The notes under the pieces are model-generated. The model ran no database searches. It had not been told where the DNA came from and saw only the letters and a list, made by a program, of their open reading frames with translations. A stretch of 64,000 nucleotides of DNA from an uncultured Burkholderiales bacterium (GTDB lineage: Bacteria > Pseudomonadota > Gammaproteobacteria > Burkholderiales > Burkholderiaceae_C). This document shows positions 15-52,648 of this stretch, piece after piece. A program made the position numbers and the translations under genes. The number at the start of each line of letters is the position of its first letter. Position 1 is the stretch's first letter. Location of the stretch: positions 1 to 64,000 of the forward strand of contig CAILCI010000029.1 in assembly GCA_903832625.1 (NCBI GenBank), given 5' to 3'.

Positions 15-74
15 GTCGAGATGCTAAAAACCGAAGTGTCCAGAGTCTGGACACTTGCGTTTTAGCATCTCGAC
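15..74. repeat. Long palindrome, copy A of a dispersed family
   Basis: Arms begin GTCGAGATGCTAAAA and end with the exact reverse complement. The inner arms AAGTGTCCAGA/TCTGGACACTT surround a single central G at 45. Only three or four bases between outer and inner arms fail to pair. The outer arms match those of the palindromes near 27.69 kb and 52.47 kb. The inner hairpin is flanked by an A-run on one side and a T-run on the other, so it could terminate transcription in both directions. The partner palindrome seen at the other two sites is absent here. Confidence 0.9.
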
Positions 75-326
75 AATATTGATTTGAAACTGACAAAAAC
101 GCTTTGGAATTAGTTGGAAAGCAGGGGGCCTCGAAATCGGGGGAACGTCGTTTGCAACATAAATTTTTTTCAGTAGTCCATCACAAACTCTCCACCCCAA
201 ACTCTCAACTTTATTAAGCAAATGTATAACTACTAAAGTACTACAAATCAAATAATCCAACCGAGATTGCTACCCAGCAATCCCAAAAGCGTGTTTGTTT
301 TTCTTGGATTTTTTGAAAGTGTTTGT
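75..326. other. Non-coding stretch upstream of first gene
   Basis: AT-rich sequence between the palindrome and the first credible start codon. I see no gene, RNA or clear promoter. The minus-strand open frame across it begins without context and runs into the palindrome, so I do not call it. Confidence 0.5.
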
Positions 327-1247
327 ATGAGTGAAATCGTAACTATGGGGTCTGGTTCTGAGGCAGAAGTCACTGTTAGAAGTGCTGAGTTGACGAATAT
401 TTTTCAACGCGGAGCGAATGGGAAATTGGGCATGAAAATGCCCGCCCAAAGCCCAGAGGTGCTGGATGCGCTGCAACAAGTCAACCAGTTGGCGAAAGAT
501 TACGAAACACTCAAGATTGAAGTTTTTCTGCGCGCCGACCGTGCATCGTGGGTGTTTTTGAGCAATGTCTACGACTTTGTGTTGCGCATCAACAGGTCGG
601 TTAAAAAACGACAAATCAAAAGCGACTTGCTCGAGATGATCAAGCTGCGTGACCACATCAGCATCACTTCCGCAGCAGAAACAGAGACCATTGTGGCGCG
701 TTACATCTTTTCTGACATGGCGCGGCAAACCCGTAACAATTATGTGGCCGTCATGCAAAAAGCTTTGTCGTTGGATGTCAAGCAAGGCGAGCTCTTGGTT
801 TTGTTGGAGCAAAACGGCGGCATTTCCAATTGGGTGAACAACGCTTTTGACGGAGTTGACGCTCAAAAAATTGCAGACCGAGAACAACGCAAAACCCTGC
901 GCACAGATTCAGTCAGCCTCATGCGCCGCCTGTTTGCCCTCATGGGCAGTGGGCAAGGCGTGTCCTTTGTCAAAACAAAGCAAGTGGCCGACTGGACGCC
1001 CAGCGCCAGAGAGTTGGCCACCGTGAAAGAAGCCAACAAAAACGCCACCAAATACCAAGCCGGAGAGTTCGTGTTTTTCGTGGCAACGCCCAGCGAACAG
1101 CCAGACGAGTACAAGCTCATTCAAGGCTTCAGCGCTGCGCGAGATTTTGAAGACCAGTTGTTGCTCCAAATCGCAGCCCGCTTGGGCGCGGACAACCAGC
1201 AACTGCAAGCGGTTGTGTCGGAGTTTGAGGCGGCTAGGTTGAACTGA
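327..1247 (+). CDS. Hypothetical protein, about 306 aa
   Basis: I do not recognise this protein. The frame is open from an ATG at 267, but the first 20 residues from there look like upstream sequence, so I prefer the ATG at 327 (MSEIVTMGSGS), preceded by a weak GAAAG. The product is soluble, with no signal peptide or membrane segment, mixed charge and several predicted helical stretches rich in Leu, Lys and Glu. It reads LQQVNQLAKDYETLKIEVFL early on and ends LQAVVSEFEAARLN. It stands alone between a palindromic repeat and a stem-loop, next to a truncated regulator. That suggests an accessory or recently rearranged spot, but nothing ties it to a function. Confidence 0.7.
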   Translation: MSEIVTMGSGSEAEVTVRSAELTNIFQRGANGKLGMKMPAQSPEVLDALQQVNQLAKDYETLKIEVFLRADRASWVFLSNVYDFVLRINRSVKKRQIKSDLLEMIKLRDHISITSAAETETIVARYIFSDMARQTRNNYVAVMQKALSLDVKQGELLVLLEQNGGISNWVNNAFDGVDAQKIADREQRKTLRTDSVSLMRRLFALMGSGQGVSFVKTKQVADWTPSARELATVKEANKNATKYQAGEFVFFVATPSEQPDEYKLIQGFSAARDFEDQLLLQIAARLGADNQQLQAVVSEFEAARLN

Positions 1248-1276
1248 CCTGAATTACCTTTTTGCAAGAAAAAACA

Positions 1277-1299
1277 AGGGCGCGCGCAAGTCGCGCCCT
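1277..1299. terminator. GC-rich stem-loop after first gene
   Basis: AGGGCGCG and CGCGCCCT form an 8-bp stem around a 7-base loop, 30 bases after the stop at 1247. The T-rich side is the minus-strand exit (the plus strand has AAGAAAAAACA just before the stem); the plus-strand exit has only ATTAAAA. It may act weakly in both directions. Confidence 0.55.
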
Positions 1300-1366
1300 A
1301 TTAAAAAGCATAATTAATCTGTGTTGCATTGAGTTTTAAGCTCAGGCTGAAAAGGGTAAAGTCGAA

Positions 1367-1564
1367 ATGAAAGTCATAAATATTGGCATTGCTTCGCAAG
1401 AGAAGATTCGCGAACGGATGTTGGCAATCGCCAAGGGCGAACTCAAACCCAAGGCCTCAGACCCCAAAATTTGGTTCACTTCCATGCGGTCCTTGTCCCA
1501 AGTTTTAAGCGATGAAAACCGCGCACTTCTAGACGTTATTCGCACCTCACCAGCTACCAAATAA
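1367..1564 (+). pseudogene. Truncated HVO_A0114-type DNA-binding regulator
   Basis: The 65-residue product opens MKVINIGIASQEKIRERM and continues through KIWFTSMRSLSQVLSDENR and ALLDVI. I recognise this as the N-terminal part of HVO_A0114-type putative DNA-binding proteins. These are antitoxin-like regulators of roughly 110-130 residues whose later half is a winged helix-turn-helix. Here translation stops straight after RTSPATK, where the family normally continues into the DNA-binding helices. The following 50 bases give no HTH-like sequence in any frame. A reasonable Shine-Dalgarno (AAAAGGG) precedes the ATG, so the fragment may still be expressed. No toxin partner is adjacent. I infer a decayed toxin-antitoxin or regulator remnant; a functional short version is possible. 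Confidence 0.6.
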
Positions 1565-1617
1565 TGACGTAAGTTACAGGTTTCAAAAAGTATTCACTTC
1601 CCAATTGCCATCAAAAT

Positions 1618-1872
1618 ATGCCCCAACGCAGAAACAGCGCTGGAGCAACGTCCTTGAATCAGGCCTTGATACAACAAGAAATTCGTGATGCGGCGTCGGC
1701 TAGGCAAACCATTGCGGCTTTGCTCGTCCTGTTGCAAGACACTCCTTTCAGGCGCCCACCCCCAGAACCCACAATGTGCTGCGGTCGCGGCTGTGGTGTG
1801 TGCGTCTGGGAAGGCTTTGTCACTGCCAGTGAAACATGGCGGCTCGATGTTTTGCATCTGCTCAAACTTTGA
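1618..1872 (+). CDS. Oxidoreductase-like domain small protein
   Basis: The 84-residue protein has a central RPPPEPTMCCGRGCGVCVWE motif (about residues 45-65). This is the hallmark of the short oxidoreductase-like domain (Pfam Oxidored-like) found in many proteobacterial small proteins and at the N-termini of some eukaryotic oxidoreductases. The CC-x3-C-x2-C arrangement suggests metal or redox chemistry, but the function is not established. The N-terminal 40 residues are polar and helical. I chose the ATG at 1618 as the first in frame; a later start is possible. It is followed 11 bases later by a small membrane protein and could be co-transcribed with it. Confidence 0.75.
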   Translation: MPQRRNSAGATSLNQALIQQEIRDAASARQTIAALLVLLQDTPFRRPPPEPTMCCGRGCGVCVWEGFVTASETWRLDVLHLLKL

Positions 1873-1883
1873 AAAGTGCGTCA

Positions 1884-2303
1884 ATGACCAAACAACAAAA
1901 AATAGTCTCTATGGTTTTCGGTGTTTCGCTGCTGCTTGCGGGACTGATTGCTTTTGAGCACAACCAATCGAATCAACAACATTTTGCGCAAGAGCTGGAG
2001 CGCGAAACAGGGTTGCACGAAGCTGCACAAAAATTTGTGGATGATTGCGCCAAAGACCTCGATTCCGCCGCCGAACGGTTTGACGCGTATGGCGTGGTGT
2101 GCAAGCAAGTTCAAGACGATTTGGCGCTCACCGGGAAAAACATCGACGATTTGAAGGCTCGCGCTGCGCAATCGTCCATTGATCTTTGGTGGAACATGGT
2201 CTGGCTGACCTTGATTTTTAACGCCATTGCCGCTGTGATGTATGCGTTTGAGCGGTGGCTGACCCGCTGGGAGCAGACCCCAAGTGCTGAGCCACATGAT
2301 TGA
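1884..2303 (+). CDS. Small membrane protein, unknown
   Basis: I do not recognise this 139-residue protein. It begins MTKQQKIVSMVFGVSLLLAG, a hydrophobic segment (residues about 8-25). It then has a polar, acidic middle region (about 30-100) with two Cys near residues 54 and 72, and a second membrane segment (WWNMVWLTLIFNAIAAVMYA, about 101-121) before a short polar tail. This predicts two membrane segments with the middle domain on one side of the membrane. The frame is open to 1836, but the ATG at 1884 lies just after the preceding stop and gives a sensible first helix. Its 3' end overlaps the convergent LysR gene by 86 bases. Confidence 0.7.
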   Translation: MTKQQKIVSMVFGVSLLLAGLIAFEHNQSNQQHFAQELERETGLHEAAQKFVDDCAKDLDSAAERFDAYGVVCKQVQDDLALTGKNIDDLKARAAQSSIDLWWNMVWLTLIFNAIAAVMYAFERWLTRWEQTPSAEPHD

Positions 2304-3159
2304 TGAGCACCGACACGCGGTGCGGAATATAGCGGTTGCTCGGTAACACCGCATAAATGCCCAAAGTCGGTGAGGCGTAGGACTGCAATATTTCCACCAC
2401 CTCTCCGCGCTCAATGAAGGGCTGCGCAATAAAGTCAGGCTGGCGCGTGATGCCCAAGCCCGCCGCTGCCGATTGCGCTAAAGCAAACCCATTGTTGGCC
2501 GTGATGCGTGAGCGAATTGACACGGTTTGTGTGTTTTTATCTGGTCCCACGAAATGCCAAGCGCTGTTGCCGCGTTCGCTGTCGTAGCTCAGGCATTCGT
2601 GTTGCAACAAATCTTGCGGTTGTTCTGGCGTGCCATGCTGCGCCAAATAGCTGGGCGAGGCGAGGGTGAGCAACTGGCATTCGCCCAGTTTGCGCACAAT
2701 GTCGCCCGGTTCGAGTTCTGAGGCAATGCGAATGGACAGGTCTATGCCTTCTTCTATCAAGTTGGCGCGGCGGTCTGAAAAATCCATCATCAACTCAATT
2801 TGCGTGTGCTCTTTGGCAAAAGCGATGAGGGCGGGCATGAGCCTTTGCAGGCCAAAACTCAGCGGCAGCCCCAAGCGTATGCGTCCGCGCAGCACAGCAC
2901 GTTCTTCCACCAAGCTCGCTTCCGCTGCGTCCACCATGTTCAAAATAGCGCGGCATTGCTCTAAATAAGCCGCGCCTGCGGCAGTGAGGGTGAGGCTGCG
3001 TGTGCTGCGGGTGATGAGTTTGGTGCCGAGTTGCTTTTCTAGCGCCGAGACTTGTCGGGTCACAATCGAGCGATCGACATTGAGCTGGTTGGCCACGGCA
3101 ATAAAACTACCGGCTTCGGCCACCCGCAGAAAAATTTGCATTGCGTTGAATTTGTCCAT
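2218..3159 (-). CDS. LysR-family transcriptional regulator
   Basis: This 313-residue protein starts MDKFNAMQIFLRVAEAGSF, the typical LysR winged HTH (residues about 1-60, with VDRSIVTRQVSALEKQLG as the recognition region). A periplasmic-binding-like effector domain fills the rest (RGRIRLGLPLSFGLQRLMPAL, then SIRIASELEPGDIVRKLGEC). The sequence style is that of the large CrgA/DhcR-like group. It is transcribed divergently from the cytochrome b561/YceI operon, the usual arrangement for a LysR regulator and its target, so I infer control of that operon. The tail from about residue 293 is a low-complexity Ser/Thr/Gln stretch. The 3' end overlaps the convergent membrane-protein gene. Confidence 0.93.
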   Translation of the reverse strand: MDKFNAMQIFLRVAEAGSFIAVANQLNVDRSIVTRQVSALEKQLGTKLITRSTRSLTLTAAGAAYLEQCRAILNMVDAAEASLVEERAVLRGRIRLGLPLSFGLQRLMPALIAFAKEHTQIELMMDFSDRRANLIEEGIDLSIRIASELEPGDIVRKLGECQLLTLASPSYLAQHGTPEQPQDLLQHECLSYDSERGNSAWHFVGPDKNTQTVSIRSRITANNGFALAQSAAAGLGITRQPDFIAQPFIERGEVVEILQSYASPTLGIYAVLPSNRYIPHRVSVLINHVAQHLGSAPSGSATAQTHTSQRQWR

Positions 3160-3180
3160 TGTTGTGTATTTTGCAACAAT
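3158..3180. promoter_or_regulatory. Inverted repeat at LysR start, putative operator
   Basis: ATTGTTG and CAACAAT form perfect 7-bp arms separated by 9 bases, abutting the LysR start codon (complement of 3157-3159). LysR proteins bind T-N11-A type dyads near their own divergent promoters, so this is a candidate autoregulatory site. That is inference from position and symmetry only. Confidence 0.4.
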
Positions 3181-3191
3181 AAATTGCGTAT

Positions 3192-3218
3192 TTGCTGATT
3201 TTTTGCCAGCTATATAAA
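3192..3218 (+). promoter_or_regulatory. Candidate promoter of b561/YceI operon
   Basis: TTGCTG at 3192-3197 is followed by TATATAAA at 3211-3218, a good -10-like element with short spacing (13-15 bases depending on register). It lies about 80 bases before the cytochrome start and is divergent to the LysR gene. Confidence 0.4.
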
Positions 3219-3270
3219 ACGTACAGTTCTTACATCTTGTTAAGTGACGCTTGTTTTTTTGCTTGAAAAA

Positions 3271-3303
3271 ATGAAAAACAATCGCCGAAAGGAAAACAGT
3301 TGA
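3271..3303 (+). CDS. Possible 10-aa leader peptide before cytochrome b561
   Basis: ATG at 3271 opens a 10-codon frame, MKNNRRKENS, that stops with TGA at 3301-3303. The stop overlaps the TTG start of the cytochrome gene at 3300 (TTGA). Such an overlap could couple translation of the TTG-initiated gene. The Shine-Dalgarno of the cytochrome gene (GAAAGGA) lies inside this frame. Whether it is translated cannot be told from sequence. Confidence 0.35.
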   Translation: MKNNRRKENS

Positions 3304-3848
3304 CTACCAACAATTACAACCCCATTGCCAAATTGCTGCACTGGTTCATGGCGCTGGTGATTTTTGGTCTGATTGCCCTCGGTTTGGTGATGGCGGACAT
3401 GCCGTTTTCGCCTGAAAAACTGCAATATTTCTCGTGGCACAAGTGGGCGGGCGTGAGCATTTTTGTGTTGGTGTGGCTGCGTTTGCTGTGGCGTGTGTTG
3501 AACCCGCCACCCGCTTACCCCAGCACCATGCCCGCATTGCTGCAAAAACTGGCACACGCAGGCCACCACTTGTTGTATGCGCTGATGATCATCATCCCGC
3601 TCACGGGTTGGTTGATGAGTTCGGCCAAAGGCGTGCAAACCGTGTGGTTTGGCGTGTTGCCAATTCCTGACTTATTGAGCAAAGACAAAGAGTTGGGCAA
3701 GTTGCTGGAAGACATTCACGCCAGCCTGAACTGGGGGCTGATGTTCCTTTTGGCAGGCCACATTTTGGCGGCGCTCAAACATCATTGGGTTGACAAAGAC
3801 GATGTGCTCACCCGCATGACATTCGCTAGAAATTCAAAGGAGTCTTAA
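3300..3848 (+). CDS. Cytochrome b561 family protein
   Basis: This 182-residue integral membrane protein has four predicted helices and the His pattern of the bacterial b561 (CybB-type) family: LLHWFMALVIF in helix 1, YFSWHKWAGV before helix 2, AGHHLLYALMIIIPLTGW in helix 3, and LAGHILAALKHHWVDKDDVL at the end. These His residues would bind two b hemes in a quinol-linked electron carrier. The only start consistent with length and Shine-Dalgarno (GAAAGGA at about 3288) is a TTG at 3300. It is directly followed by two YceI genes with no gap and with 18 bases. The b561-YceI pairing is common in proteobacteria; YceI proteins bind polyisoprenoid lipids, which suggests a quinone or isoprenoid-related role. 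Confidence 0.9.
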   Translation: MTTNNYNPIAKLLHWFMALVIFGLIALGLVMADMPFSPEKLQYFSWHKWAGVSIFVLVWLRLLWRVLNPPPAYPSTMPALLQKLAHAGHHLLYALMIIIPLTGWLMSSAKGVQTVWFGVLPIPDLLSKDKELGKLLEDIHASLNWGLMFLLAGHILAALKHHWVDKDDVLTRMTFARNSKES

Positions 3849-4406
3849 ATGAAGAAAACCCTCAGCCTCGTGCTACTAGCCGCAGCCTTGAGCAGCGCTC
3901 AGGCGGTGGAATACAAAGCGATTCAAGCCGACAAAAGCTCACTCACCTTTGGTTACAAACAAATGGGCGTGGCGATGGACGGCAAATTCAACAAGTTTGT
4001 CGCCAAGCTCGATTTTGATCCGGCCAAGCCCGCTGCGGCCAAGGCCAGCATTGAGATTGATTTGGCCAGCATTGACACAGGCTCTATGGAAGCCGACGGC
4101 GAAGTGCTGGGCAAGGCGTGGTTTAACGCGTCGGCTTATCCCAAAGCTTTGTTTGAATTGCAGCAGATCAAGCCAACCGGTGCCAACCAATTTGAGGCGA
4201 GTGGCAAGCTCACCATCAAGGGCAAAACGGTTGACATCAAAGCCCCTTTGAAATACGCAGCGCAAGGCGCAACAGGCGTGTTCACGGGCGGCTTCGTCAT
4301 CCATCGTGCTGACTTTGCCATTGGCGAAGGCACATGGTCTAAGTTTGATGTTGTGGCCAACGACATTCAAGTTAATTTTCAACTCACCGCCGTATCTGGC
4401 AAATAA
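3849..4406 (+). CDS. YceI family periplasmic protein (first copy)
   Basis: This 185-residue protein has a clear Sec signal peptide (MKKTLSLVLLAAALSSAQA, cleavage after about 19). It is followed by the YceI lipocalin-like beta barrel, recognisable from IEIDLASIDTGSMEADGEVLG, the KAWFNASAYPKALFEL region and KLTIKGKTVDIKAPL. YceI proteins are periplasmic and bind isoprenoid-type lipids; the exact role is unknown. The gene starts on the base after the cytochrome stop, so the two are surely co-transcribed. It is only distantly similar to the next gene, consistent with an old duplication or two separate acquisitions within one operon. Confidence 0.93.
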   Translation: MKKTLSLVLLAAALSSAQAVEYKAIQADKSSLTFGYKQMGVAMDGKFNKFVAKLDFDPAKPAAAKASIEIDLASIDTGSMEADGEVLGKAWFNASAYPKALFELQQIKPTGANQFEASGKLTIKGKTVDIKAPLKYAAQGATGVFTGGFVIHRADFAIGEGTWSKFDVVANDIQVNFQLTAVSGK

Positions 4407-4424
4407 ACCTTCAAAGGATCTTTC

Positions 4425-5000
4425 ATGACAAAACTCAACCGCATTGCTGCTGCTTTTGCATTTGCCGCATTGGCCGTTTCTGCCAGCGCCGCACCATTGA
4501 CCTACACCGTGGACGGTACACACACGTTCCCACGTTTTTCTTATTCGCATTTTGGTTACTCCACCCAATTGAGCCGTTTTGATAAAACCACGGGCACTGT
4601 GGTGTTTGATGCCGAAGCCAAAACAGGTTCGGTGGACATCGTGATCGACATGAAATCGGTCAACACAGGTTTTGTGGACTTCAACGGCCACATTCAAGGT
4701 GAAGACTTTTTGGATACGACCAAGTTCCCCCAAGCCACTTTCAAATCCACCAAAGTGGTGTTTGAAGGCGACAAGCCCAAAACCATCGAAGGCAACTTGA
4801 CCATCAAAGGCGTGACCAAGCCCGTCACCTTGACCGTGACCTCATTCCAAGCCATGCCACACCCCATGCTGAAAAAACCAGCCATGGGCGCCAATGCGTT
4901 CACCACCATCAAACGCACAGAATTCAATGCTGGCAAATACGCACCTTACGTGGGTGACGACGTACGCATTGACATCGCTTTGGAAGCTATCGCGATGTAA
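4425..5000 (+). CDS. YceI family periplasmic protein (second copy)
   Basis: This 191-residue protein has a signal peptide ending in ASAAP (about residue 23) and a full YceI domain: YTVDGTHTFPRFSYSHFGYS, SVDIVIDMKSVNTGFVDFN, GEDFLDTTKFPQATFKSTKV, then GNLTIKGVTKPVTLTVTSF. It is closer to the classical E. coli YceI pattern than the copy before it. It is the last gene of the b561-YceI-YceI operon; 134 bases follow before the ABC transporter. Binding of a polyprenyl lipid or quinone-like molecule is expected from the family. Confidence 0.94.
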   Translation: MTKLNRIAAAFAFAALAVSASAAPLTYTVDGTHTFPRFSYSHFGYSTQLSRFDKTTGTVVFDAEAKTGSVDIVIDMKSVNTGFVDFNGHIQGEDFLDTTKFPQATFKSTKVVFEGDKPKTIEGNLTIKGVTKPVTLTVTSFQAMPHPMLKKPAMGANAFTTIKRTEFNAGKYAPYVGDDVRIDIALEAIAM

Positions 5001-5134
5001 TAGCGGCTGATGCTTTCTGGTTATTCGTCGCACCTGAGACAAAGCGCGGGATAACCATGAGAAAAGTATCGCGGATAAGTCACAAAATCTGTCATCTTCA
5101 ATTTCGCCAGTTTTTTTGATCGGCGTGGTACACG

Positions 5135-5911
5135 ATGGCAGATGACATCATTTTGCAAACCCAGGACTTGGTCAAAGAGTTCTTGGGTTTTGTGGCAGTT
5201 AACCGAGTCAATCTCAAAGTCCGGCGAGGCCAGATTCACGCGTTGATTGGCCCCAATGGCGCGGGCAAAACCACAGTATTCAATCTGTTGACCAAGTTTT
5301 TGATCCCCACGCAAGGGACGATTCTTTTCAATGGTCAAGACATCACTTCCAAAAAACCTGCCGAAGTCGCGCATCGCGGCTTGGTGCGTTCTTTTCAAAT
5401 TTCCGCCACCTTCCCCAATTTAACGGTGCTAGAGAACGTGCGCATTGGATTGCAAGGCGCGACGGGTTTGTCTTTGCATTTTTGGCGTTCGGAGCGCGTG
5501 TTGAGCCAACTCAACGACCGAGCTATGGCTTTGCTCGAAGAAGTGGGCTTGGAGAGTTTTGCCGACACCCAAGCGGTGGAATTGGCTTATGGCCGCAAAC
5601 GTGCCCTAGAAATTGCCACCACACTGGCCATGAATCCCGAACTCATGCTGCTGGACGAACCCACGCAAGGCATGGGGCACGAAGATGTGGACCGTGTGAC
5701 GCAACTCATCAAAAAAGTCAGTGCCAACCGCACGGTGCTGATGGTGGAGCACAACATGAGCGTGGTTTCGCGCATTGCCGACACCATCAGCGTGTTGCAG
5801 CGCGGCCAAATCATTGCCGAAGGGCCTTACGCCACGGTGTCACAAAACCCGCAGGTGCTCGAAGCCTACATGGGCACGGTCGAGACCGAGCTGGAGGGCG
5901 CACATGCTTGA
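5135..5911 (+). CDS. livG: LIV-type ABC transporter ATPase (LivG-like)
   Basis: This 258-residue nucleotide-binding subunit has Walker A IGPNGAGKTT (about residues 44-53), the LivG-type signature region AYGRKRALEIATTLA, Walker B LMLLDEPTQGM and the H-loop MVEHNMSVV. It is the first gene of a complete five-gene importer, ordered ATPase-ATPase-binding protein-permease-permease. It overlaps the next gene by 8 bases. With LivF it would power uptake of an amino acid or a short aromatic/carboxylic acid; the family name does not fix the substrate. Start ATG at 5135; the upstream 134 bases must hold the promoter but I see no strong match. Confidence 0.92.
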   Translation: MADDIILQTQDLVKEFLGFVAVNRVNLKVRRGQIHALIGPNGAGKTTVFNLLTKFLIPTQGTILFNGQDITSKKPAEVAHRGLVRSFQISATFPNLTVLENVRIGLQGATGLSLHFWRSERVLSQLNDRAMALLEEVGLESFADTQAVELAYGRKRALEIATTLAMNPELMLLDEPTQGMGHEDVDRVTQLIKKVSANRTVLMVEHNMSVVSRIADTISVLQRGQIIAEGPYATVSQNPQVLEAYMGTVETELEGAHA

Positions 5912-6614: not shown

Positions 6615-6633
6615 TTTCAAAAATGGAGTTTTT

Positions 6634-7848: not shown

Positions 7849-7866
7849 TTTTCTAATCGGCAAGTC

Positions 7867-8751: not shown

Positions 8752-8757
8752 AAGAAT

Positions 8758-9714: not shown

Positions 9715-9802
9715 CACTGTTGCATTTTTGATGTAATTGATAAGATTATTAAATTTTTGATTAAACTACGAAGGTTGTTATTAAAACCCCGTAGGAGCCT
9801 GC

Positions 9803-11552: not shown

Positions 11553-11612
11553 GGACAGAGGTCGGTGTTTTGAAACTTTTTTTCAGGGGGCGCTCAAACG
11601 CGGCGGTTTTCT

Positions 11613-11620
11613 TATACAAT
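11613..11620 (+). promoter_or_regulatory. -10 element of tRNA-Gly promoter
   Basis: TATACAAT lies 16 bases before the first base of the tRNA and is a near-consensus -10 followed by a GCG-type discriminator. The -35 region (CTCAAA, 11593-11598) is weak. Confidence 0.55.
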
Positions 11621-11635
11621 GCGTGCTTCGCTTCT

Positions 11636-11711
11636 GCGGGAATAGCTCAGTTGGTAGAGCGCAACCTTGCCAAGGTTGAGGTCGCGAGTTCGAGCCTCGT
11701 TTCCCGCTCCA
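11636..11711 (+). tRNA. tRNA-Gly (GCC)
   Basis: A 76-base cloverleaf with acceptor stem GCGGGAA/TTCCCGC, D-arm AGCTCAGTTGGTAGAGC, anticodon stem-loop CCTTGCCAAGG giving anticodon GCC, T-arm GCGAGTTCGAGCCTCG, and an encoded CCA (11709-11711). A strong hairpin terminator follows directly. Confidence 0.97.
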
Positions 11712-11716
11712 AATCA

Positions 11717-11748
11717 AAAGCCCCTGAAACCTCGGTTTCAGGGGCTTT
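11717..11748. terminator. Bidirectional terminator between tRNA-Gly and K+ channel gene
   Basis: Perfect 15-base arms AAAGCCCCTGAAACC and GGTTTCAGGGGCTTT with two central bases, T-run on the plus side and A-run (T-run for the minus strand) on the other. It ends both the tRNA transcript and the convergent channel gene, whose stop is at 11759. Confidence 0.9.
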
Positions 11749-11758
11749 TTGTTTTAGA

Positions 11759-26052: not shown

Positions 26053-26058
26053 GTCCGG

Positions 26059-27630: not shown

Positions 27631-27662
27631 ACGCATTTTTTGCAGTTCGTTGCTGATTTTGG

Positions 27663-27719
27663 CGAGATGCTAAAACGCGAAGTGTCCACAGTGTGGACAC
27701 TTCAGTTTTTAGCATCTCG
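27663..27719. terminator. 57-bp palindrome, probable bidirectional terminator
   Basis: Arms CGAGATGCTAAAA and TTTTAGCATCTCG are exact complements. The inner hairpin AAGTGTCCACA/TGTGGACACTT pairs around central G27691. Reading in either direction the inner stem is followed by a T-run, as in an intrinsic terminator. It lies 33 bases after the matB stop. Confidence 0.75.
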
Positions 27720-27812
27720 ACAGAAACGCTTAAATTGAGATTTTTTTAGAGTTTTTTGCCACTTTGTACGCACTGCAAAGCAAAGCAAACTTGGTTTCTT
27801 GCGAAATTCTGA

Positions 27813-27867
27813 GTTTGATAAAAACCTTGACTGTCCACAGTGTGGACACTTCGGGTTTTTATCAAAC
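27813..27867. terminator. 55-bp palindrome (second arm type), probable bidirectional terminator
   Basis: Outer arms GTTTGATAAAAACC and GGTTTTTATCAAAC are exact complements, and the core TGTCCACA/TGTGGACA is exact around G27840. The core is shared with the neighbouring palindrome but the arms are different. The TTTTT after the inner stem on both strands again fits termination, here for cphA coming from the other side. Confidence 0.75.
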
Positions 27868-27920
27868 TTTGTTTTATGCTGAATTTTGAGTTTGCTTGGA
27901 TGGTGCATGCGCACTTCTTA

Positions 27921-39609: not shown

Positions 39610-39671
39610 GAGGCGTTTTTTGGTCGCCTTTTGGGGAATTTGCGGCTGTTGGACGCTAATTTCGGCTCAAA

Positions 39672-42300: not shown

Positions 42301-42305
42301 AAAAC

Positions 42306-43040: not shown

Positions 43041-43050
43041 GGCGAATCTT

Positions 43051-44814: not shown

Positions 44815-44815
44815 C

Positions 44816-45856: not shown

Positions 45857-45870
45857 GTGCAAGTCCCTGC

Positions 45871-47004
45871 TTATTCAACCTTGAATTGGCCGTCAACCAC
45901 TTTGAGCATCACACCGGTTTCCATGGTGTAACCCCAGTGGTCTTCTTTGGTCCAGTTCATCACGCCGTGGGCGAAGATGGTGCGACCCATGCCTTCCAAA
46001 CCATCACGAATGGCGGCGCGGAATTCGGGGGTGCCGGGCTTGGCTTTTTTCAAGGCCATGGGCAGCACTTTTTCCATCGTCACTTGAAAATCATACGAGT
46101 GACCTGCAAACTGGTTGCGGCTGTTGGGGCCGTAGGCTTTTTCAAACTGCTGCACAAAGTTGACCGCCACTTTTTTGGAGGGATGGCTGTCGGGCAGTTG
46201 CTCGGCAATCACGGCGGGGCCAGAGACCACAAATGTGCCTTCGACAGCTTTGCCGCCCACGCGCATCAAGTCTTGGGTGGCGGCGGCGTGGGTTTGGTAA
46301 ATCTTGCCTTTGTAGCCGCGCTCCACCAAACCCATCTCAGGCATGGCTGCGCCGGAGCCAGAGGCGACGACCAAAATTGCGTCGGGGTTGGCAGAGTTAA
46401 GTTTCAAAGCCTGTGGCGTCACGCTGGTGTCGGTGCGGGCAAAGCGCTCCACGCCCACCAGTTTGATGCCTGCTTGGTTGAGTTGAGGCGTGATTTCATT
46501 GAGCCACTGCTCGCCATAGGCGTCGGTGTAGCCCAAAAAGCCCAAGGTTTTGACGCCTTGCTTTTTCATGTGTTCCACCACCGCATGGCCCATGACGGTG
46601 TTGGATTGGGGCAGACGAAACACCCATTTGTCTTTGCCTGCGGGCAAGCCCACGGGTGAGCCCGCAATTTGCACCGTGCCAGCCTCGGTGGCGATGTCGC
46701 TCATGGCCGCTGCCACAGCGGTGATGCAGGAGCCAAAGATCACGTCCACTTTGTCTTCTGTGACGAAACGGCGTGCATTGGCTGCGCCTTTGCCGGGGTC
46801 GGTGGCGTCGTCCAACAAGATGAGGTTGACTTTTTCACCGCCAATGGTTTTGGGAAACAAAGCCAATTGCTTTTGCATCGGCAAGCCCAAACCGGAGCCC
46901 GGCCCGGTGAGCGCCAAGCTCACGCCAATGTTGATGTCGGCCAAAGCCGCCGTGCTGACCAAAGAAACAATGGCCGAAGCCAAAAGAGTGGTTTTGAATT
47001 TCAT
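45871..47004 (-). CDS. Periplasmic substrate-binding protein of second LIV system
   Basis: This 377-residue protein has a signal peptide (MKFKTTLLASAIVSLVSTAA then LADIN, cleaved near residue 22). The type I binding fold follows: INIGVSLALTGPGSGLGLPM, LILLDDATDPGKGAANARRF, GSPVGLPAGKDKWVFRLPQS, and TLGFLGYTDAYGEQWLNEI. The clustered feruloyl-CoA synthetase suggests a hydroxycinnamate ligand, parallel to the CouP binding protein of Rhodopseudomonas. The start is the ATG at 47004, behind GGAGA. It is the first of the transport genes. Confidence 0.9.
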   Translation of the reverse strand: MKFKTTLLASAIVSLVSTAALADINIGVSLALTGPGSGLGLPMQKQLALFPKTIGGEKVNLILLDDATDPGKGAANARRFVTEDKVDVIFGSCITAVAAAMSDIATEAGTVQIAGSPVGLPAGKDKWVFRLPQSNTVMGHAVVEHMKKQGVKTLGFLGYTDAYGEQWLNEITPQLNQAGIKLVGVERFARTDTSVTPQALKLNSANPDAILVVASGSGAAMPEMGLVERGYKGKIYQTHAAATQDLMRVGGKAVEGTFVVSGPAVIAEQLPDSHPSKKVAVNFVQQFEKAYGPNSRNQFAGHSYDFQVTMEKVLPMALKKAKPGTPEFRAAIRDGLEGMGRTIFAHGVMNWTKEDHWGYTMETGVMLKVVDGQFKVE

Positions 47005-47053
47005 GGGGTTGTCTCCTGTTGAAAAAACTTCTTTGCAATGAACGTGGGAACGA

Positions 47054-47818
47054 TTAACGGGGCGCCATTCGCAACGCACCGTCCAAGCGAATCACTTCGC
47101 CGTTCAAGTGGTCGTTGCTCACGATGTGGCAGGCGAGTTGGGCAAACTCCTCAGGTTTACCCAAGCGCGAAGGAAAGGGAATCGACGCCGCCAGTGACTG
47201 CTGCACGGGCTCGGGCAAGGTGCGCATGAGCGGCGTGGCAAACAAGCCCGGCGCGATGGTGCACACGCGAATGCCGTGCTGCGCCAGGTCACGTGCCATG
47301 GGCAAGGTCATGCTGACCAAACCGCCTTTGCTGGCGCTGTAGGCTTGTTGACCGACTTGGCCGTCAAAAGCCGCCACCGACGCGGTGAACAGCATCACGC
47401 CACGAGCGCCATCTTCCAGCGGCGCGAGTTTGGCGCATTCCGCCGCAAACAAACGGCTGATGTTGTACGCGCCCACCAAGTTGACGTTGATGACTCGGGC
47501 AAAGTCTTCCAGCGGGGCGGCTTGGCCGTCTTTGCCGACCACGCGCTTGGCCGTGCCAATGCCGGCGATGTTCATCATCAAACGTGCTGTGCCGTGTGCG
47601 GCTGTGGCTTGGGCCAATGCGGCTTGCACGCTCTCGGTTTGTGTGATGTCGCATTGCACGGCAATGCCACCAATGTCAGAGGCGACTTTTTGTGCGAGTT
47701 CTAAGTTGACGTCGAGCACTGCCACTTTGGCGCCCAATCGCGCCAGTTCGCGAGCCGTGGCTTCGCCCAAACCCGATGCGCCACCTGTGACGAGTGCGGC
47801 TTGTCCTTGAATTTGCAT
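47054..47818 (-). CDS. SDR-family 3-hydroxyacyl-CoA dehydrogenase
   Basis: This 254-residue short-chain dehydrogenase has the nucleotide-binding motif LVTGGASGLGEATARELA, then LDVNLELAQKVASDIGG, NIAGIG (NNAG equivalent), the catalytic YSASKGG and a Ser in FTASVAAFDGQVGQQ. It resembles the type 10 17-beta-HSD/3-hydroxyacyl-CoA dehydrogenase group. In this cluster it would oxidise the beta-hydroxy acyl-CoA made by the crotonase to the beta-keto form. It lies between the feruloyl-CoA synthetase and the transport genes. Confidence 0.9.
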   Translation of the reverse strand: MQIQGQAALVTGGASGLGEATARELARLGAKVAVLDVNLELAQKVASDIGGIAVQCDITQTESVQAALAQATAAHGTARLMMNIAGIGTAKRVVGKDGQAAPLEDFARVINVNLVGAYNISRLFAAECAKLAPLEDGARGVMLFTASVAAFDGQVGQQAYSASKGGLVSMTLPMARDLAQHGIRVCTIAPGLFATPLMRTLPEPVQQSLAASIPFPSRLGKPEEFAQLACHIVSNDHLNGEVIRLDGALRMAPR

Positions 47819-47835
47819 GTGTGTGTCCTTGTGGT

Positions 47836-49689
47836 TTATTGAGGCGTCAACGTGTGGGGCGCAGTGCCTGCGTGCAGGGCTTGCACCAAGGCGTCGCGGT
47901 GCTTGAGCACAGCGCGTTGGTTGATCGAGCCTTTGTCGGTGACTTCGCCCTTGTCAATCGACGGCGGCTCGCTCAGCAAGACCAGCCGCGCCACGCGGTT
48001 GGCGCTGCCTGTGGCGGTTTTCGCCAGTGTGTTGACCACATGTTGAAAATGCGTTTGCACAGGTGTGCTGGCCAGCACATCGGCCAACGGCGCATCGGCG
48101 GCCAAACCACTCAAACCGCGCACGGCAGCCGTTGGAAACACCATGGCGCCAACTTCGTGCAAGTTCAAACCGGTGATGACCACGTCTTGCACATAGGGCG
48201 CACCCGCTGCAATGATCTTGGCGCGCAAAGGCCCCACGCTGACAAACGTGCCCGTGGCGAGTTTGAAGTCTTCGGCAATGCGGCCATCGAACTTCAGGCC
48301 TTGGTGGATGTCGTTCTCGTCAATCCACTTGACGGCATCGCCGGTGCACAAAAAGCCTTCTTCGTCAAAGGCTTCCGCGGTTTCTTGGGGCGCACGCCAG
48401 TAGCCCGGCGTGACGTTGGGGCCTTTGTAGCGCACCTCGACTTTGTCGCCATTGGGCACGAGTTTGAGTTCCATGCCTGCGGTGGGCAAACCCAAGTCGC
48501 CCGCTCTGGAATGGGGGCTGGTCACGAAGATGGCAAACGGCCCCGATTCGGTCATGCCCAAGCCCGTGGTCATGGCAATGCGTTCGCCCACTTCGCGCTC
48601 TTGGCTCTCGTACAAACTGTCCCAAATCGGTTGCGCCAAGGCGGCGCCTGCGTAGAAAAACATCTTGACGCGGCTGAGCAAGTTTTTGCGCAGCGCATCG
48701 TCGGTTTTCATGGCGTTGGCAATGGCTTCAAAACCTGTGGGCACGTTGAAGTAGACGCTGGGCGCAATCTCGCGCAGGTTGCGCAAGGTCTCGCCAATCA
48801 GGGCGGGCGTGGGTTTGCCGTCGTCGATGTAGAGCGTGCCGCCGTTGTAGATGGTCATGCCAAAGTTGTGGTTGCCACCAAAGGTGTGGTTCCACGGCAG
48901 CCAATCCACCAGCACCAAAGGACGCTCGGCCAACACCGGCATGGAGGCAATCATTTGCTGTTGGTTGGCGCACCACAGGCGCTGCGTGTTGATGACGGCC
49001 TTGGGCATCTTGGTCGAGCCCGAGGTGAACAAAAATTTCACAATCGTGTCGGGGCCTGTGGCGGCCATGGCGGCATCGACTGCCGCAGTGTCTGCGGTGG
49101 CCAGCAAGTCAGCAAACGATGTGCTGGCGCGGCCTTCTATCGTGCCTTCGTTCAAGATCACCGCAACGTCGTGACCAACGGCGGCTTGAATGGCTTTGCC
49201 ATAACGCGCTGCATCCGCCGCAAACACCAAACCCGGCGTGAGCGTGCTCATGATGTGGCGCAGCTTGTCGTAGTCTTGGCTGATGGTGGAATAGGCGGGC
49301 GACGCTGGGCAATACGGCACACCGGCCATCATGCAGCCCAGCGCCATCAAGGCGTGCTCCAAATCGTTTTCCGACAAGATCACCACCGGATGCTGTTCAT
49401 TCAAACCCCGGTCAATCAGCGCTTGCGCAATGCGTCGCGCTGAAGCATAGGCTTGGCCGTAGCTCAGGTGCTGCCAATCGCCTCTGCTGCCATCGGCGTT
49501 TTTGCGGCGACGTGCAAACAGCGTCAAATCGGGCTCGGTTTGCGCCCAATGCAGCAAACGGTCGGTCATGCGCTGGGCATAAGCGGGCAGCGGGGTGTCG
49601 GCCACCATGTAGCGCACGCCGTTGTGGCTTTCGCGCAGCGTGGCGCGGGTCACGCCAAAAGTCATGGGTCTGAATGTGGCAGCGCTCAT
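47836..49689 (-). CDS. fcs: Feruloyl-CoA synthetase
   Basis: This 617-residue adenylate-forming enzyme is typical in length for feruloyl-CoA synthetases. It contains the P-loop FLFTSGSTKMPKAVINTQRL, VLVDWLPWNHTFGGNHNFGM, AMTTGLGMTESGPFA, and GYWRAPQETAEAFDEEGFLC with TGDAVKWID. It would activate ferulate, p-coumarate or caffeate to the CoA thioester. It is flanked by the crotonase and SDR genes on the same strand with small gaps, together making the core of a CoA-dependent side-chain shortening route. Confidence 0.92.
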   Translation of the reverse strand: MSAATFRPMTFGVTRATLRESHNGVRYMVADTPLPAYAQRMTDRLLHWAQTEPDLTLFARRRKNADGSRGDWQHLSYGQAYASARRIAQALIDRGLNEQHPVVILSENDLEHALMALGCMMAGVPYCPASPAYSTISQDYDKLRHIMSTLTPGLVFAADAARYGKAIQAAVGHDVAVILNEGTIEGRASTSFADLLATADTAAVDAAMAATGPDTIVKFLFTSGSTKMPKAVINTQRLWCANQQQMIASMPVLAERPLVLVDWLPWNHTFGGNHNFGMTIYNGGTLYIDDGKPTPALIGETLRNLREIAPSVYFNVPTGFEAIANAMKTDDALRKNLLSRVKMFFYAGAALAQPIWDSLYESQEREVGERIAMTTGLGMTESGPFAIFVTSPHSRAGDLGLPTAGMELKLVPNGDKVEVRYKGPNVTPGYWRAPQETAEAFDEEGFLCTGDAVKWIDENDIHQGLKFDGRIAEDFKLATGTFVSVGPLRAKIIAAGAPYVQDVVITGLNLHEVGAMVFPTAAVRGLSGLAADAPLADVLASTPVQTHFQHVVNTLAKTATGSANRVARLVLLSEPPSIDKGEVTDKGSINQRAVLKHRDALVQALHAGTAPHTLTPQ

Positions 49690-49717
49690 GCAGGTCTCCG
49701 AGTTATTTTTCTGGCGA

Positions 49718-50497
49718 TCAATTTTTTTGAACCTTGGCGGCGCGGCCTTCTAAAAAGTCGCGCACGCGCTGCTTGGCTTCGGGCGCAGATTGCGCCACCG
49801 ACGCCATCAAGGCCTCGGTCATGAAACCTTGGTCGGCGGGTTGCTCGGCAATGCGGGGCAGGGCGTGCATCAAGGCATAGTTGGTCAGCGGTGCGTTGGT
49901 GGCGATGCGCTCGGCCAAGGCAAAAGCTTTGTCAAACGACGTGCCGTTGGGCACGAGGTATTGGGCAAAACCCACGCGCTCGCCGTCCACGGCGTTGTAG
50001 ACGCGGCCTGTCATCATCATGTCGGTCATGCGCGCCACGCCAATCAAACGCGGAATACGCACCGAGCCGCCGCCGCCCACAAAAATTCCGCGCGAGCCTT
50101 CAGGCAGTGCGTAAAACGTGGTCTCGTCGGCCACGCGAATGTGGCAGGCGCTGGCCAACTCCAAGCCGCCGCCCACCACGGCACCGTGCAAAGCCGCAAC
50201 CACAGGCACGGGGCCGTATTGCAAACGCTCCAGCGCGACGTGCCATGAACGTGAATGCATCAGGCCTTGGCCTGCGTCGCGTTCTTTGAGTTCGCTCAAA
50301 TCCAGGCCAGCACAAAAATGTTCGCCGTCGCCGTCAATCACCGCTGCTTTGGCGTGCTCGGGCAGGTTTTCGAAAATTTTGCGGATCGAGGCCACCAAGC
50401 CATCGCTCAGAGCGTTGCGTTTGGCCGGGCGGGTCAGGCGGATGACGGCAATGTCGCCGCGCATTTCAAAGTGAATGTCTGCCGTGCTGAGGGTCAT
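49718..50497 (-). CDS. Crotonase-family enoyl-CoA hydratase
   Basis: This 259-residue crotonase has the oxyanion-hole region GEHFCAGLDLSELKERD, HGAVVGGGLELASACHIRVA, and the active-site stretch ALPEGSRGIFVGGGGSVRIP. The short basic C-terminus is FLEGRAAKVQKN. It is the first gene of the minus-strand cluster and is divergent from the amidohydrolase. I infer hydration of the hydroxycinnamoyl-CoA double bond; the presence of SDR and amidohydrolase genes, and absence of a vanillin dehydrogenase here, favours hydratase over hydratase-lyase action. Confidence 0.88.
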   Translation of the reverse strand: MTLSTADIHFEMRGDIAVIRLTRPAKRNALSDGLVASIRKIFENLPEHAKAAVIDGDGEHFCAGLDLSELKERDAGQGLMHSRSWHVALERLQYGPVPVVAALHGAVVGGGLELASACHIRVADETTFYALPEGSRGIFVGGGGSVRIPRLIGVARMTDMMMTGRVYNAVDGERVGFAQYLVPNGTSFDKAFALAERIATNAPLTNYALMHALPRIAEQPADQGFMTEALMASVAQSAPEAKQRVRDFLEGRAAKVQKN

Positions 50498-50529
50498 GAT
50501 GATTCTTAAAAAGTCGGGTTTGTAGGGGC

Positions 50530-50571
50530 TTGCATTTGTTTCTGGTTTGAATTATGGTTATGAAAAGTAAC
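50530..50571 (+). promoter_or_regulatory. Candidate promoter with overlapping MarR-type dyad
   Basis: TTGCAT (50530-50535), 17 bases, then TATGGT (50553-50558) resembles a sigma-70 promoter for the amidohydrolase. GTTA-N7-TAAC (50557-50571) overlaps and follows its -10 and could be the operator of the MarR regulator of this locus. This is inference from spacing and symmetry. Confidence 0.35.
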
Positions 50572-50608
50572 TAAATCATTCGGACTTACCCTAGGAGAAA
50601 GCACTTTC

Positions 50609-51478
50609 ATGGACTACAAAAACCTCATCGCCATCGACATTCACACCCATGCCGAGGTGAGTTGTCGCAATCCTTTCGACAACTATGGCGAGGAATACGA
50701 CCGCGCCGCCGACAAATACTTCGGCAGCAACCGTCGTCCCACGATTGACGAAACCGTGGCCTATTACCGCGAGAAAAAAATCGGTCTGGTCATGTTCACG
50801 GTGGACAGCGAATCGCAACTCGGTCGCCGTCGTATTCCCAATGAAGAAATTGCAGACGCCGCCAAAAAGAACAGCGACATGATGATTGCCTTTGCCAGCA
50901 TCGATCCGCACAAAGGCAAGATGGGCGCACGCGAGGCCGAGCGCCTGATTCAAGAAGAGGGCATCAAGGGCTTCAAGTTTCACCCCACGGTGCAGGGCTA
51001 CCACCCCTACGACAAAATGGCGTGGCCGATTTACGAAGTCATCAACCACTACAAACTGCCCGCGATTTTTCACACCGGACACAGCGGCATTGGCAGCGGT
51101 ATGCGCTGCGGCGGCGGCTTGCGTTTGGAGTATTCCAACCCCATGCATTTGGACGATGTGGCCATATCGTTTGGGGACATGCAAATCGTCATGGCGCACC
51201 CCAGTTTTCCGTGGCAAGACGAGGCGCTGAGCGTGGCCACGCACAAACCCAATGTGTGGATTGACCTCTCCGGCTGGAGCCCCAAGTACTTCCCCAAACA
51301 ATTGGTGCAATACGCCAACACCTTGCTCAAAGACCGCGTGTTGTTTGGCAGCGATTACCCGCTCATCACGCCCGAGCGTTGGATGAAAGATTTTGAAGTG
51401 GCGGGCTTCAAGCCCGAGGTCATGCCCGGCATTTTGAAAGACAACGCAGTACGACTTTTGGGGCTGGACAAGGCCTAG
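50609..51478 (+). CDS. Amidohydrolase-2 family hydrolase (beta-ketoacyl-CoA hydrolase candidate)
   Basis: This 289-residue TIM-barrel amidohydrolase has metal ligands visible in IDIHTHAEV (H12, H14), GFKFHPTVQGY, IFHTGHSG, MAHPSFPW and FGSDYPLITPERW. This type of amidohydrolase acts as 4-hydroxyphenyl-beta-ketoacyl-CoA hydrolase in p-coumarate pathways of Rhodopseudomonas-like organisms, releasing the hydroxybenzoate. Its place divergent from the crotonase/Fcs/SDR genes supports that role here, though amidohydrolase-2 members have many substrates. The start has AGGAGA upstream; a strong terminator follows. Confidence 0.85.
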   Translation: MDYKNLIAIDIHTHAEVSCRNPFDNYGEEYDRAADKYFGSNRRPTIDETVAYYREKKIGLVMFTVDSESQLGRRRIPNEEIADAAKKNSDMMIAFASIDPHKGKMGAREAERLIQEEGIKGFKFHPTVQGYHPYDKMAWPIYEVINHYKLPAIFHTGHSGIGSGMRCGGGLRLEYSNPMHLDDVAISFGDMQIVMAHPSFPWQDEALSVATHKPNVWIDLSGWSPKYFPKQLVQYANTLLKDRVLFGSDYPLITPERWMKDFEVAGFKPEVMPGILKDNAVRLLGLDKA

Positions 51479-51516
51479 CCACGATTGCTGCTGTGCAGCA
51501 CACAACCCCCGCTTTG

Positions 51517-51545
51517 AACGCCTGCTTCGCGCAGGCGTTTTTTTT
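51517..51545 (+). terminator. Intrinsic terminator of amidohydrolase gene
   Basis: AACGCCTGC and GCAGGCGTT pair around TTCGC, followed by nine T residues (51537-51545), 38 bases after the stop codon. Confidence 0.92.
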
Positions 51546-51650
51546 GCCTTGAGTGGGGCTTGTTGAATAAATAAGTATTTGTTTTGCCTGATATCGATAT
51601 TGTTTTAATAATTGTTTTTACGTTTTAAGTATTGCTCGAAAGGAAGCGCC

Positions 51651-52415
51651 ATGACCATCGTCGTTGCTGATCCGGTTGAAAGTTTGGTTCTCACGGCCTC
51701 TGGCTATACCTTGCGCTTTGTTCAATCTCAAGCCGATTTAGAGCGCGTGCAGCGCTTGCGCTTTGAGGTCTTCAACTTGGAGTTGAAAGAAGGCTTGGCC
51801 AGCGCCTACCAAACAGGTCTCGACGCCGATGCATGGGACGATGTTTGCACTCATTTGCTGGTCGAGCATGACGACACCCATCAGGTGGTGGGCACTTATC
51901 GAATGCAAACGGGCTGGACGGCCAAAGATGCGCTGGGGTATTACTCGGCGCAAGAGTTCGACATGTGCTTGTATGCCCCCGAACGCGGCCAAATTTTGGA
52001 GTTGGGGCGTGCCTGCATTTCGCAAAAACACCGCAATTTTTCAGTGCTGACCTTGCTGTGGCGCGGTATTGCAGCCTTTGCCAAAGAACATGGCTCGCGC
52101 TATTTGTTGGGTTGCAGCTCGTTGACCTCGCAAAGCCCACAAGAAGCGCACGATGCTTTCATGGTCATGCAGCCGCATATGGCGCCCGAAGAATTCCGCA
52201 CCGTCCCGCAAAAAGGCATGGCCTGCGAGAGCGTGGCGCGGGTGCACAACACACACTACAAGTTGCCCAAATTGTTGTCGGTGTATTTGTCGCTAGGCGC
52301 GTGGGTGTGTGGCCCACCCGCGATGGACACAGAGTTCAAAACCATCGACTTTTTGACCTTGCTCGATTTGCATTCGCCACAAATGCAGTGGCAGCGCAGA
52401 CGCTTTGGGTTTTGA
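51651..52415 (+). CDS. OlsB-like N-acyltransferase (GNAT fold)
   Basis: This 254-residue protein resembles ornithine-lipid synthase OlsB and related N-acyl amino acid synthases. YTLRFVQSQADLERVQRLRF and EVFNLELKEG open the domain, HLLVEHDDTHQVVGTYRMQT follows, and the core is LELGRACISQKHRNFSVLTL with LWRGIAAFAKEHGSRYLLGC. Such enzymes transfer 3-hydroxyacyl chains to an amino acid to make lyso-ornithine lipid. No OlsA-type second acyltransferase is adjacent, so the product is uncertain. The start is the ATG at 51651, behind AAAGGAAG. It is monocistronic; a composite repeat follows the stop. Confidence 0.82.
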   Translation: MTIVVADPVESLVLTASGYTLRFVQSQADLERVQRLRFEVFNLELKEGLASAYQTGLDADAWDDVCTHLLVEHDDTHQVVGTYRMQTGWTAKDALGYYSAQEFDMCLYAPERGQILELGRACISQKHRNFSVLTLLWRGIAAFAKEHGSRYLLGCSSLTSQSPQEAHDAFMVMQPHMAPEEFRTVPQKGMACESVARVHNTHYKLPKLLSVYLSLGAWVCGPPAMDTEFKTIDFLTLLDLHSPQMQWQRRRFGF

Positions 52416-52444
52416 GGTTTTTGTGTTTTACAGGCGATTTTGGT

Positions 52445-52499
52445 GAGATGCTAAAAACCGAAGTGTCCACACTTTGGACACTTCGGTTTTTAGCATCTC
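52445..52499. terminator. 55-bp palindrome, best-conserved copy
   Basis: GAGATGCTAAAAACCGAAG pairs perfectly with its complement across the centre at 52472; the only mismatch in the whole 55 bp is C70/T74 beside the centre. T-runs follow the inner stem on both strands. It lies 30 bases after the OlsB-like stop. Confidence 0.75.
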
Positions 52500-52593
52500 G
52501 ATAAAAGCATTTAAATTGAGATTTATTTAATATTTTTTGCGGTTTTGAACGCACCTCAAAGCAAAGCAAACTTGGTTTCTTGCGAAATTCTGA

Positions 52594-52648
52594 GTTTGAT
52601 AAAAACCTTGACTGTCCACACTGTGGACACTTCAGGTTTTTATCAAAC
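52594..52648. terminator. 55-bp palindrome (second arm type)
   Basis: Same outer arms GTTTGATAAAAACC/GGTTTTTATCAAAC as at 27813, with the exact core TGTCCACA/TGTGGACA around C52621. It lies 50 bases beyond the NRDE stop on the minus strand. Confidence 0.75.

Follow-up and report, generated by a model that had tools for sequence, protein, structure and literature searches.

A lineage-specific family of paired long palindromes in an uncultured Burkholderiales bacterium: candidate miniature repeat elements with terminator-like features

The DNA analysed here, referred to as the window, is a stretch of 64,000 nucleotides from an uncultured Burkholderiales bacterium (contig CAILCI010000029.1), and the subject of this report is a group of five long palindromes within it. 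We found that these palindromes belong to a family dispersed through the same genome, and that copies lying close together mostly form pairs with a nearly constant spacing. They are best seen as a real, little-spread family of repeats, a variant similar to miniature inverted-repeat transposable elements (MITEs), with a probable terminator role and with remodelling mediated by the palindrome cores. Among the explanations weighed below, that of miniature, non-autonomous elements with palindromes that serve as terminators and undergo recombination at the core appears to be the best, and we favour it with moderate confidence.

According to this explanation, the palindromes would be miniature, non-autonomous repeat elements forming a family specific to the lineage, whose basic unit would be two palindromes of 55-60 bp, placed 149 or 151 bp apart from core to core and separated by a spacer of 93-96 bp. 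Such units would be situated between genes, between convergent ones more often than expected, and each palindrome would give rise to a hairpin with an A-tract on one side and a T-tract on the other, serving as an intrinsic terminator on both strands; one unit of the window (element 1) would do the work of an ordinary terminator that occupies its site in half of the relatives compared. Because the core common to the copies is near-identical, recombination or slipped replication may take place there, which would delete one core-to-core period and convert a long form into a short hybrid form, and would likewise add or remove cargo genes lying between direct copies. Directly visible in the sequences are the family and its spacing, the hybrids, a likely empty locus, genes bracketed by copies, preserved complementarity and the T-tracts. 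We infer that the elements spread by transposition, that they terminate transcription in vivo, and that core recombination was the source of the hybrids.

The palindrome family and its paired unit

A repeat search found an inverted repeat at each of the five places proposed in the initial annotation (Table 1). Folded as RNA, the five palindromes had z-scores from -7.7 to -13.5, and in each case none of 200 shuffled sequences folded equally well. A stricter palindrome scan of the window (score at least 14) recovered two of the five, 52445-52499 with a score of 25 and 52593-52649 with 20.5, and the top score in eight dinucleotide shuffles of the window was 11.5. The same scan gave one unrelated palindrome at 11716-11749 (score 16), which is ordinary and terminator-like and lies immediately 3' of a tRNA gene. 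The core earlier described as TGTCCACA-N-TGTGGACA was exact in three of the five, the common core being rather TGTCCA-N5-TGGACA. With three mismatches allowed, the core pattern alone matched the window 7 times, not far above the chance mean of 2.88, and the case for the window palindromes therefore rests on their long arms. Two tRNAs and nothing else were found in the window by an Rfam search.

In the genome to which the window belongs (G000; 2.62 Mb in 101 contigs, coded C below), a covariance model detected 30 palindromes on 17 contigs (60 matches on both strands), five of them in the window. The model also detected five palindromes in the relative G052, one in G048, and one in G477, a lake metagenome-assembled genome (MAG; locus L158) that has, besides this whole palindrome, half of another at a contig start. 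It was built from 33 of the 37 palindromes, 26 of them from the own genome, and the copies it added independently are only two on C54 and two on C4, one of the latter with an E-value of 0.03. Since 150 of the 632-812 first-pass candidates per genome were scored, all palindrome counts are lower bounds. The copies are intergenic and bear out the proposal of a dispersed family; the supposition that it is denser than repetitive extragenic palindromic (REP) elements fails genome-wide, at 30 palindromes in 2.62 Mb.

An exact search for the core matched 14 of 84 genus genomes, compared with 9 of 84 for a reversed control; G000 had 20 matches and G052 had 2, and in the other 12 genomes flanks were inspected for one match only (G029), which is without such arms. 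A 266-bp query (E at most 0.01) matched 5 of the 84, clearly in G000, G052 and G048 and as scraps only in G078 (0.0011) and G032 (0.008). A stricter, longer core matched none of 398 other sampled family genomes, G000 being the sole match among 399 in a sample that leaves G052 outside. In wider phyla the core gave 94 stretches; among 80 of them, examined by eye, L158 and L219 alone carry the same arms, L219 apparently being G052:C244 (the match is at the same place), and the remaining loci have the core only in common. Palindromes of the form AAGTGTCCA-N-TGGACACTT, in several copies and with other flanks, were seen in Methylovulum (L194, L212), in Pseudorhodobacter MAGs (L145, L153, L155, L166) and in a Rickettsiales MAG (L189, L206, L215). 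Carriage by phages or plasmids was considered and rejected: window positions 27640-27900 had no match in plasmids or phages, the C10 element had none in plasmids (phages were not searched for it), and one A-arm pattern had none in viral contigs. Among the top-ranked titles of a literature search, we found no description of this palindrome family.

The palindromes had been taken as independent, but they mostly form a paired composite unit. The A and B pairs of elements 1 and 2 are two copies of one such unit, because they are 88% identical over 246 bp, spacer included. Two palindromes lie within 200 bp of each other at eight places in the own genome, and at six of these the cores are 149 bp (both window pairs) or 151 bp (C36, C65, C2 and C10) apart; the spacing is 181 bp on C81 and 179 bp on C4, and wider distances of 385 and 1390 bp occur on C65 and C54, respectively. 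The spacer, whose measured length depends on where we set the arm boundaries, is 93-96 bp long in six of the seven own pairs measured and 125 bp in C81. This length is kept while the spacer sequence drifts, with 62-86 of 93-96 positions identical within a subfamily and 48-60 of 93-96 between subfamilies (G052 included, C81 omitted).

Four types of arm, rather than the two first described, were distinguished in the family, namely A (GAGATGCT), B (AGTTTGAT), C (AAATCCAG) and D (AAAAGATG). Inside the arms, the order is A-tract, GAAGTGTCCA, N5 or N6, TGGACACTTC and T-tract, and the stems have about 20-28 paired positions. Across 33 aligned copies, two A and three T of the tracts, TGTC.A, T.GACA and one further A were invariant; a variant core, TGTAAA...TTTACA, altered on both sides, was found on C54 and C4. 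The centre has 5 bases in A and B copies and 6 in D-C and most A-C copies, and its innermost bases, beyond the reach of hairpin pairing, are self-complementary in 29 of 33 copies, so that a double-stranded dyad is also possible. The B palindromes retain an asymmetric bubble (TTGAC versus TGAAG), seen in both orientations relative to the flanks. It had been noted that complementarity is kept while bases vary, and this was confirmed over 28 pairs and 33 sequences: 87.8% of cells were paired compared with 75.4% after shuffling, cells with changes on both sides numbered 139 compared with 68, and the covariation score was 0.336 compared with 0.150 for shuffled and at most 0.079 for slid structures. 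There was no excess in pairs with both-side changes (15 of 28 versus 14.9 shuffled, reached by 336 of 500 shuffles) or in pair types (31 versus 32.5, reached by 409 of 500). The covariation shows kept complementarity, not many independent events.

Table 1. Features of the palindrome family in the window
Feature	Position	Strand	Remarks
Palindrome of type A-A	15..74	.	arms GAGATGCT, centre GAGTC; 14 bp from contig start
Composite element 1 (A palindrome, spacer, B palindrome)	27655..27900	+	between convergent genes; 88% identical to 52436-52681
Palindrome A of element 1	27663..27719	.	inverted repeat
Spacer of element 1	27720..27812	+	93 bp
Palindrome B of element 1	27813..27867	.	arms GTTTGAT; asymmetric inner bubble
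Composite element 2	52436..52681	+	between convergent genes; relatives of both are 8 bp apart on G052:C285
Palindrome A of element 2	52445..52499	.	inverted repeat
Spacer of element 2	52501..52593	+	93 bp
Palindrome B of element 2	52594..52648	.	inverted repeat
Gene X, orphan 306-aa protein	327..1247	+	one of 3 paralogues in own genome, each with such a palindrome within about 0.8 kb

Hybrid copies, bracketed genes and loci in relatives

Five copies combine an A arm with a C arm (C65b, C89, C26, C37 and C60), and one copy is an A-B hybrid (C27). The outer flanks of C65b, C89 and C26 match those of the long form C10 at 43, 39 and 37 of 60 positions on the left and at 29, 31 and 26 of 40 on the right, against maxima of 35-38 and 24-26, respectively, among 200 random windows for each comparison; the match of C26 is marginal by this test. 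For the same three copies, blastn over flank plus palindrome was strong, the palindrome itself being part of the query. The three short hybrids look like the long form minus one core-to-core period, and the simplest reading would be the loss of such a period from a long form.

Genes were found bracketed by copies of the palindromes. In G052 (C69), two B palindromes beside an aldo/keto reductase gene enclose an MntA-like gene (NTP_transf_2, 3.6e-10) and a HepT-like gene (5.5e-27); at the orthologous reductase gene, the own genome has A, spacer and a single B, without HepT/MntA (88.5% match). The sequence left of the first B of G052 matches the own spacer (z 8.1, 0 of 1000 shuffles, the last 20 bases by B omitted), and that left of the second does not (z -0.4), as expected from recombination between the two B copies. 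G048 has a B palindrome and a 155-bp piece of the HepT/MntA pair (96.8%) up to the contig end, most of HepT being missing. On C54 of the own genome, an HNH_2 gene (8.4e-13) lies between direct repeats of 250 bp (94.8%) that contain the end of a gene called X here and a palindrome; the HNH gene is missing from the orthologous locus of G477, where gene X is accompanied by one palindrome and by the same downstream gene (97% over 200 bp). Homologous recombination between repeats would explain both cases.

Besides the window copy of gene X, copies were found at G000:C54:19341-20330, G000:C81:84494-85438 and positions 3305-4246 of G477 L158, the last likewise within about 0.8 kb of a palindrome. A G052 homologue (50%, C328) sits on a contig that breaks off within the gene and on which no core palindrome was seen. 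Homologues of any kind occur in 8 of the 84 genus genomes, and some distant ones are near phage-integrase-like or tyrosine-recombinase-like genes. Gene X had no Pfam match above the cut-off, no NCBIfam match, and no match in plasmids, phages or viral contigs; one distant homologue likewise had no plasmid match, and the predicted structure had a mean pLDDT of 40.6, too low for use. The link of gene X to the palindromes is an association only.

At the two composite elements, short non-coding copies are absent from the same loci in relatives, as in MITEs, though element 1 is common to G052. The near-adjoining relatives of the genes around element 2 on G052:C285 (Table 1) likely mark an empty site. 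For element 1, 30 loci were examined, of which 23 have both flanking genes, the own genome included, and 7, among them G052, were dropped. The exact core is in none of the 22 relatives having both flanking genes, and 11 of the 22 have at that site a GCCACTC...GAGTGGC hairpin, a bidirectional terminator (at most one mismatch per arm), which the own genome lacks. In G052, element 1 is split over two contigs, with A after the ligase gene on C244 and B after the other gene on C86. A 24.8-kb inversion with a breakpoint in palindrome A was considered, because on G052:C244 the ligase side of element 1 is contiguous with the gene that neighbours element 2; it was set aside, a chimeric contig or contamination being likelier. 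No partner transposon with the same ends was seen, a systematic search not having been made.

Terminator features and gene context

On both strands, the core stem is followed by a run of at least 4 T in 34 of the 37 palindromes, and by one of at least 3 T in 37 of 37; a stem with a T-tract on both strands is the form of a bidirectional intrinsic terminator. Around the 15 own copies or pairs that were placed, genes are convergent in 8, tandem in 4 and divergent in 3, orientation being judged from longest open reading frame (ORF) calls that ignore short overlapping frames, and contig-start copies without a left gene (C4, C12, C23, C29, C58, C65) being dropped. Of adjacent gene pairs in the window, 8 of 50 are convergent (ORFs of at least 100 aa), and the excess has a rough binomial p of 0.001, with ORF thresholds that differ between copies and baseline. 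For the expectation that copies would recur in relatives and respect gene boundaries, the outcome is mixed: the family is nearly confined to the own genome and one relative, and some copies sit between divergent genes, yet convergent sites predominate.

Alternative explanations and known systems

Several observations weigh against the explanation by miniature elements that move, terminate transcription and recombine at their cores. No enzyme was linked to the family, neighbour genes not having been systematically scanned for recombinases. Element flanks are too diverged to fix boundaries, and a target-site duplication is not definable. Because element 1 is common to G052, part of the distribution would be inherited. 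Local identities at the likely empty locus are only 76% and 69%, and a second G052 contig is 96% identical to the own gene of this site, so that replacement of the locus, and not entry of an element, may have taken place. In the drafts compared, palindromes lie within 400 bp of the contig start in 7 of the 17 own palindrome contigs, and contamination of G052 and G048 is 6-7%. The hybrid C60 and the long form C2 match C10 on neither outer flank, and the hybrid C37 has no match on its left flank and 22 of 40 matching positions on its right. Covariation is partly descent, the copies being related. A generic terminator scan in two ranges flagged the A palindrome of element 1 and missed the other three of four copies, with totals equal to chance (28 versus 28.0; 28 versus 26.4); we suppose that it may miss copies in which pairing runs through the T-tract. 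The divergent location of 3 of the 15 placed copies is likewise adverse.

Foremost among the alternatives, though unlikely, is that the palindromes are ordinary bidirectional terminators amplified by gene conversion and immobile as elements. Like intrinsic bidirectional terminators, they combine a hairpin with an A-tract and a T-tract, and the T-tracts on both sides, the convergent bias and, at one site, the normal terminator that half of the relatives have there would all fit; unlike ordinary terminators, they are repeated, form a paired composite unit and have arms far longer than needed, and the copying of a two-palindrome unit with its spacer at unrelated loci, the likely empty locus in G052 and the divergent sites argue against amplification alone. 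Next in order, and improbable, are site-specific recombination sites of a cassette system, at which a recombinase at the core dyad would capture and excise cargo such as toxin-antitoxin pairs. The swapping of arms around one core, the presence or absence of cargo between direct copies, the paralogous gene X near copies and the integrase-like neighbours of some of its distant homologues are consistent with such a system. However, the centres, which would be the region of exchange, vary between partner sites, homologous recombination between repeats accounts for the same facts, no recombinase was among the few neighbour proteins scanned (not a full scan), and the G052 gene X homologue is without a core palindrome on its contig. 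Integron attC sites carry R boxes of the form RYYYAAC...GTTRRRY, which are found in 0 of 37 palindromes, and attC was thereby rejected; the family resembles attC cassettes and pdif modules in having cargo genes, often toxin-antitoxin genes in those systems, between site copies, and differs from them in the missing boxes and in having no linked integrase. A long shot is an undescribed kind of cassette shuffling, with the dyad core as crossover site, in which a recombinase would recognise AAGTGTCCA-N5/6-TGGACACTT regardless of the arms, and circles of accessory genes (HepT/MntA, HNH, gene X) would integrate and excise, giving rise to hybrid palindromes as well; a conceivable participant is gene X or a related integrase-linked protein. 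If cassettes were indeed involved, they would represent a new route of mobility for toxin-antitoxin and nuclease genes.

We also consider it quite improbable that the palindromes are a family of REP sequences or REP doublets forming hairpins (REPINs) mobilised by the genome's own REP-associated tyrosine transposase (RAYT) acting on single-stranded hairpins. REPINs are paired, intergenic palindromes with a kept spacer length in the account consulted (PMC3116915), and the present doublets, with 149 or 151 bp in 6 of 8 close own pairs, agree with it; one RAYT gene is present in the own genome. In contrast, GTAG is at the stem foot in 0 of 37 palindromes and CGTC in 4 of 37, the stems of about 20-28 bp exceed the 5-13 bp of the published families covered by PMC3733652 as consulted, and no palindrome with a score of at least 10 lies within 700 bp of the ORF of the own Y1/RAYT gene (G000:C18:6390-6731), which tells equally against an enzyme link for miniature elements. 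A GGGGTCAGA-type palindrome lies near 10 of 16 relatives' RAYTs examined (L123-L139), whereas the own RAYT is without one. On the tetranucleotide tag, stem length and gene context, a RAYT/REP origin was rejected. The likeness to REP/REPIN families, so far as the consulted parts of PMC3116915, PMC3733652 and PMC12306157 describe them, lies in intergenic palindromes, doublets with conserved spacer length, compensatory changes and lineage-specific amplification; the present family differs in its longer stems, its lack of a GTAG foot, its location away from RAYT and its four arm types on one core. Least likely of all, in our estimation, is that a nucleoid or regulatory protein binds the palindromes as double-strand dyads. 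This would account for the self-complementary loop bases out of hairpin reach (29 of 33), but template switching in replication could also yield perfect centres, the core can change on both sides (TGTAAA in place of TGTCCA on C54 and C4), and distribution in relatives is patchy.

Correia/NEMIS, RUP and ERIC elements have terminal inverted repeats and target duplications, and BOX elements are modular, individual copies having lost or gained an inner module. The present family differs from the first three in its internal palindromes, with no target duplication demonstrable, and resembles BOX in its modularity, the module here being one core-to-core period bounded by palindromes. Correia/NEMIS, RUP and ERIC are MITE-like in that they are short, non-autonomous, intergenic repeats able to affect transcript ends, according to the consulted part of PMC2229807, and in this they resemble the family; pneumococcal BOX elements (PMC3049150, in the part consulted) are among the closest known systems. 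The present family provides a worked case of a small repeat that possibly doubles as terminator and recombination hot spot. With hybrids, with both long and short forms, and with cargo that close relatives either have or lack, it makes testable how palindromic repeats are moved and remodelled when no RAYT is linked to them.

Two further observations concern the surroundings of the copies. Segments of an amidohydrolase gene at G000:C12:1-181, which is at the contig start and adjoins a palindrome, and at C54:22262-22442 are 94% identical, and may represent a duplication or a strain mixture. At the ligase intergenic site, several relatives (L241, L244, L246, L248, L256) have a different, GC-rich long palindrome (GATGCTGATGGGGCTGTGCGG and similar), perhaps of another long-palindrome family of the genus.

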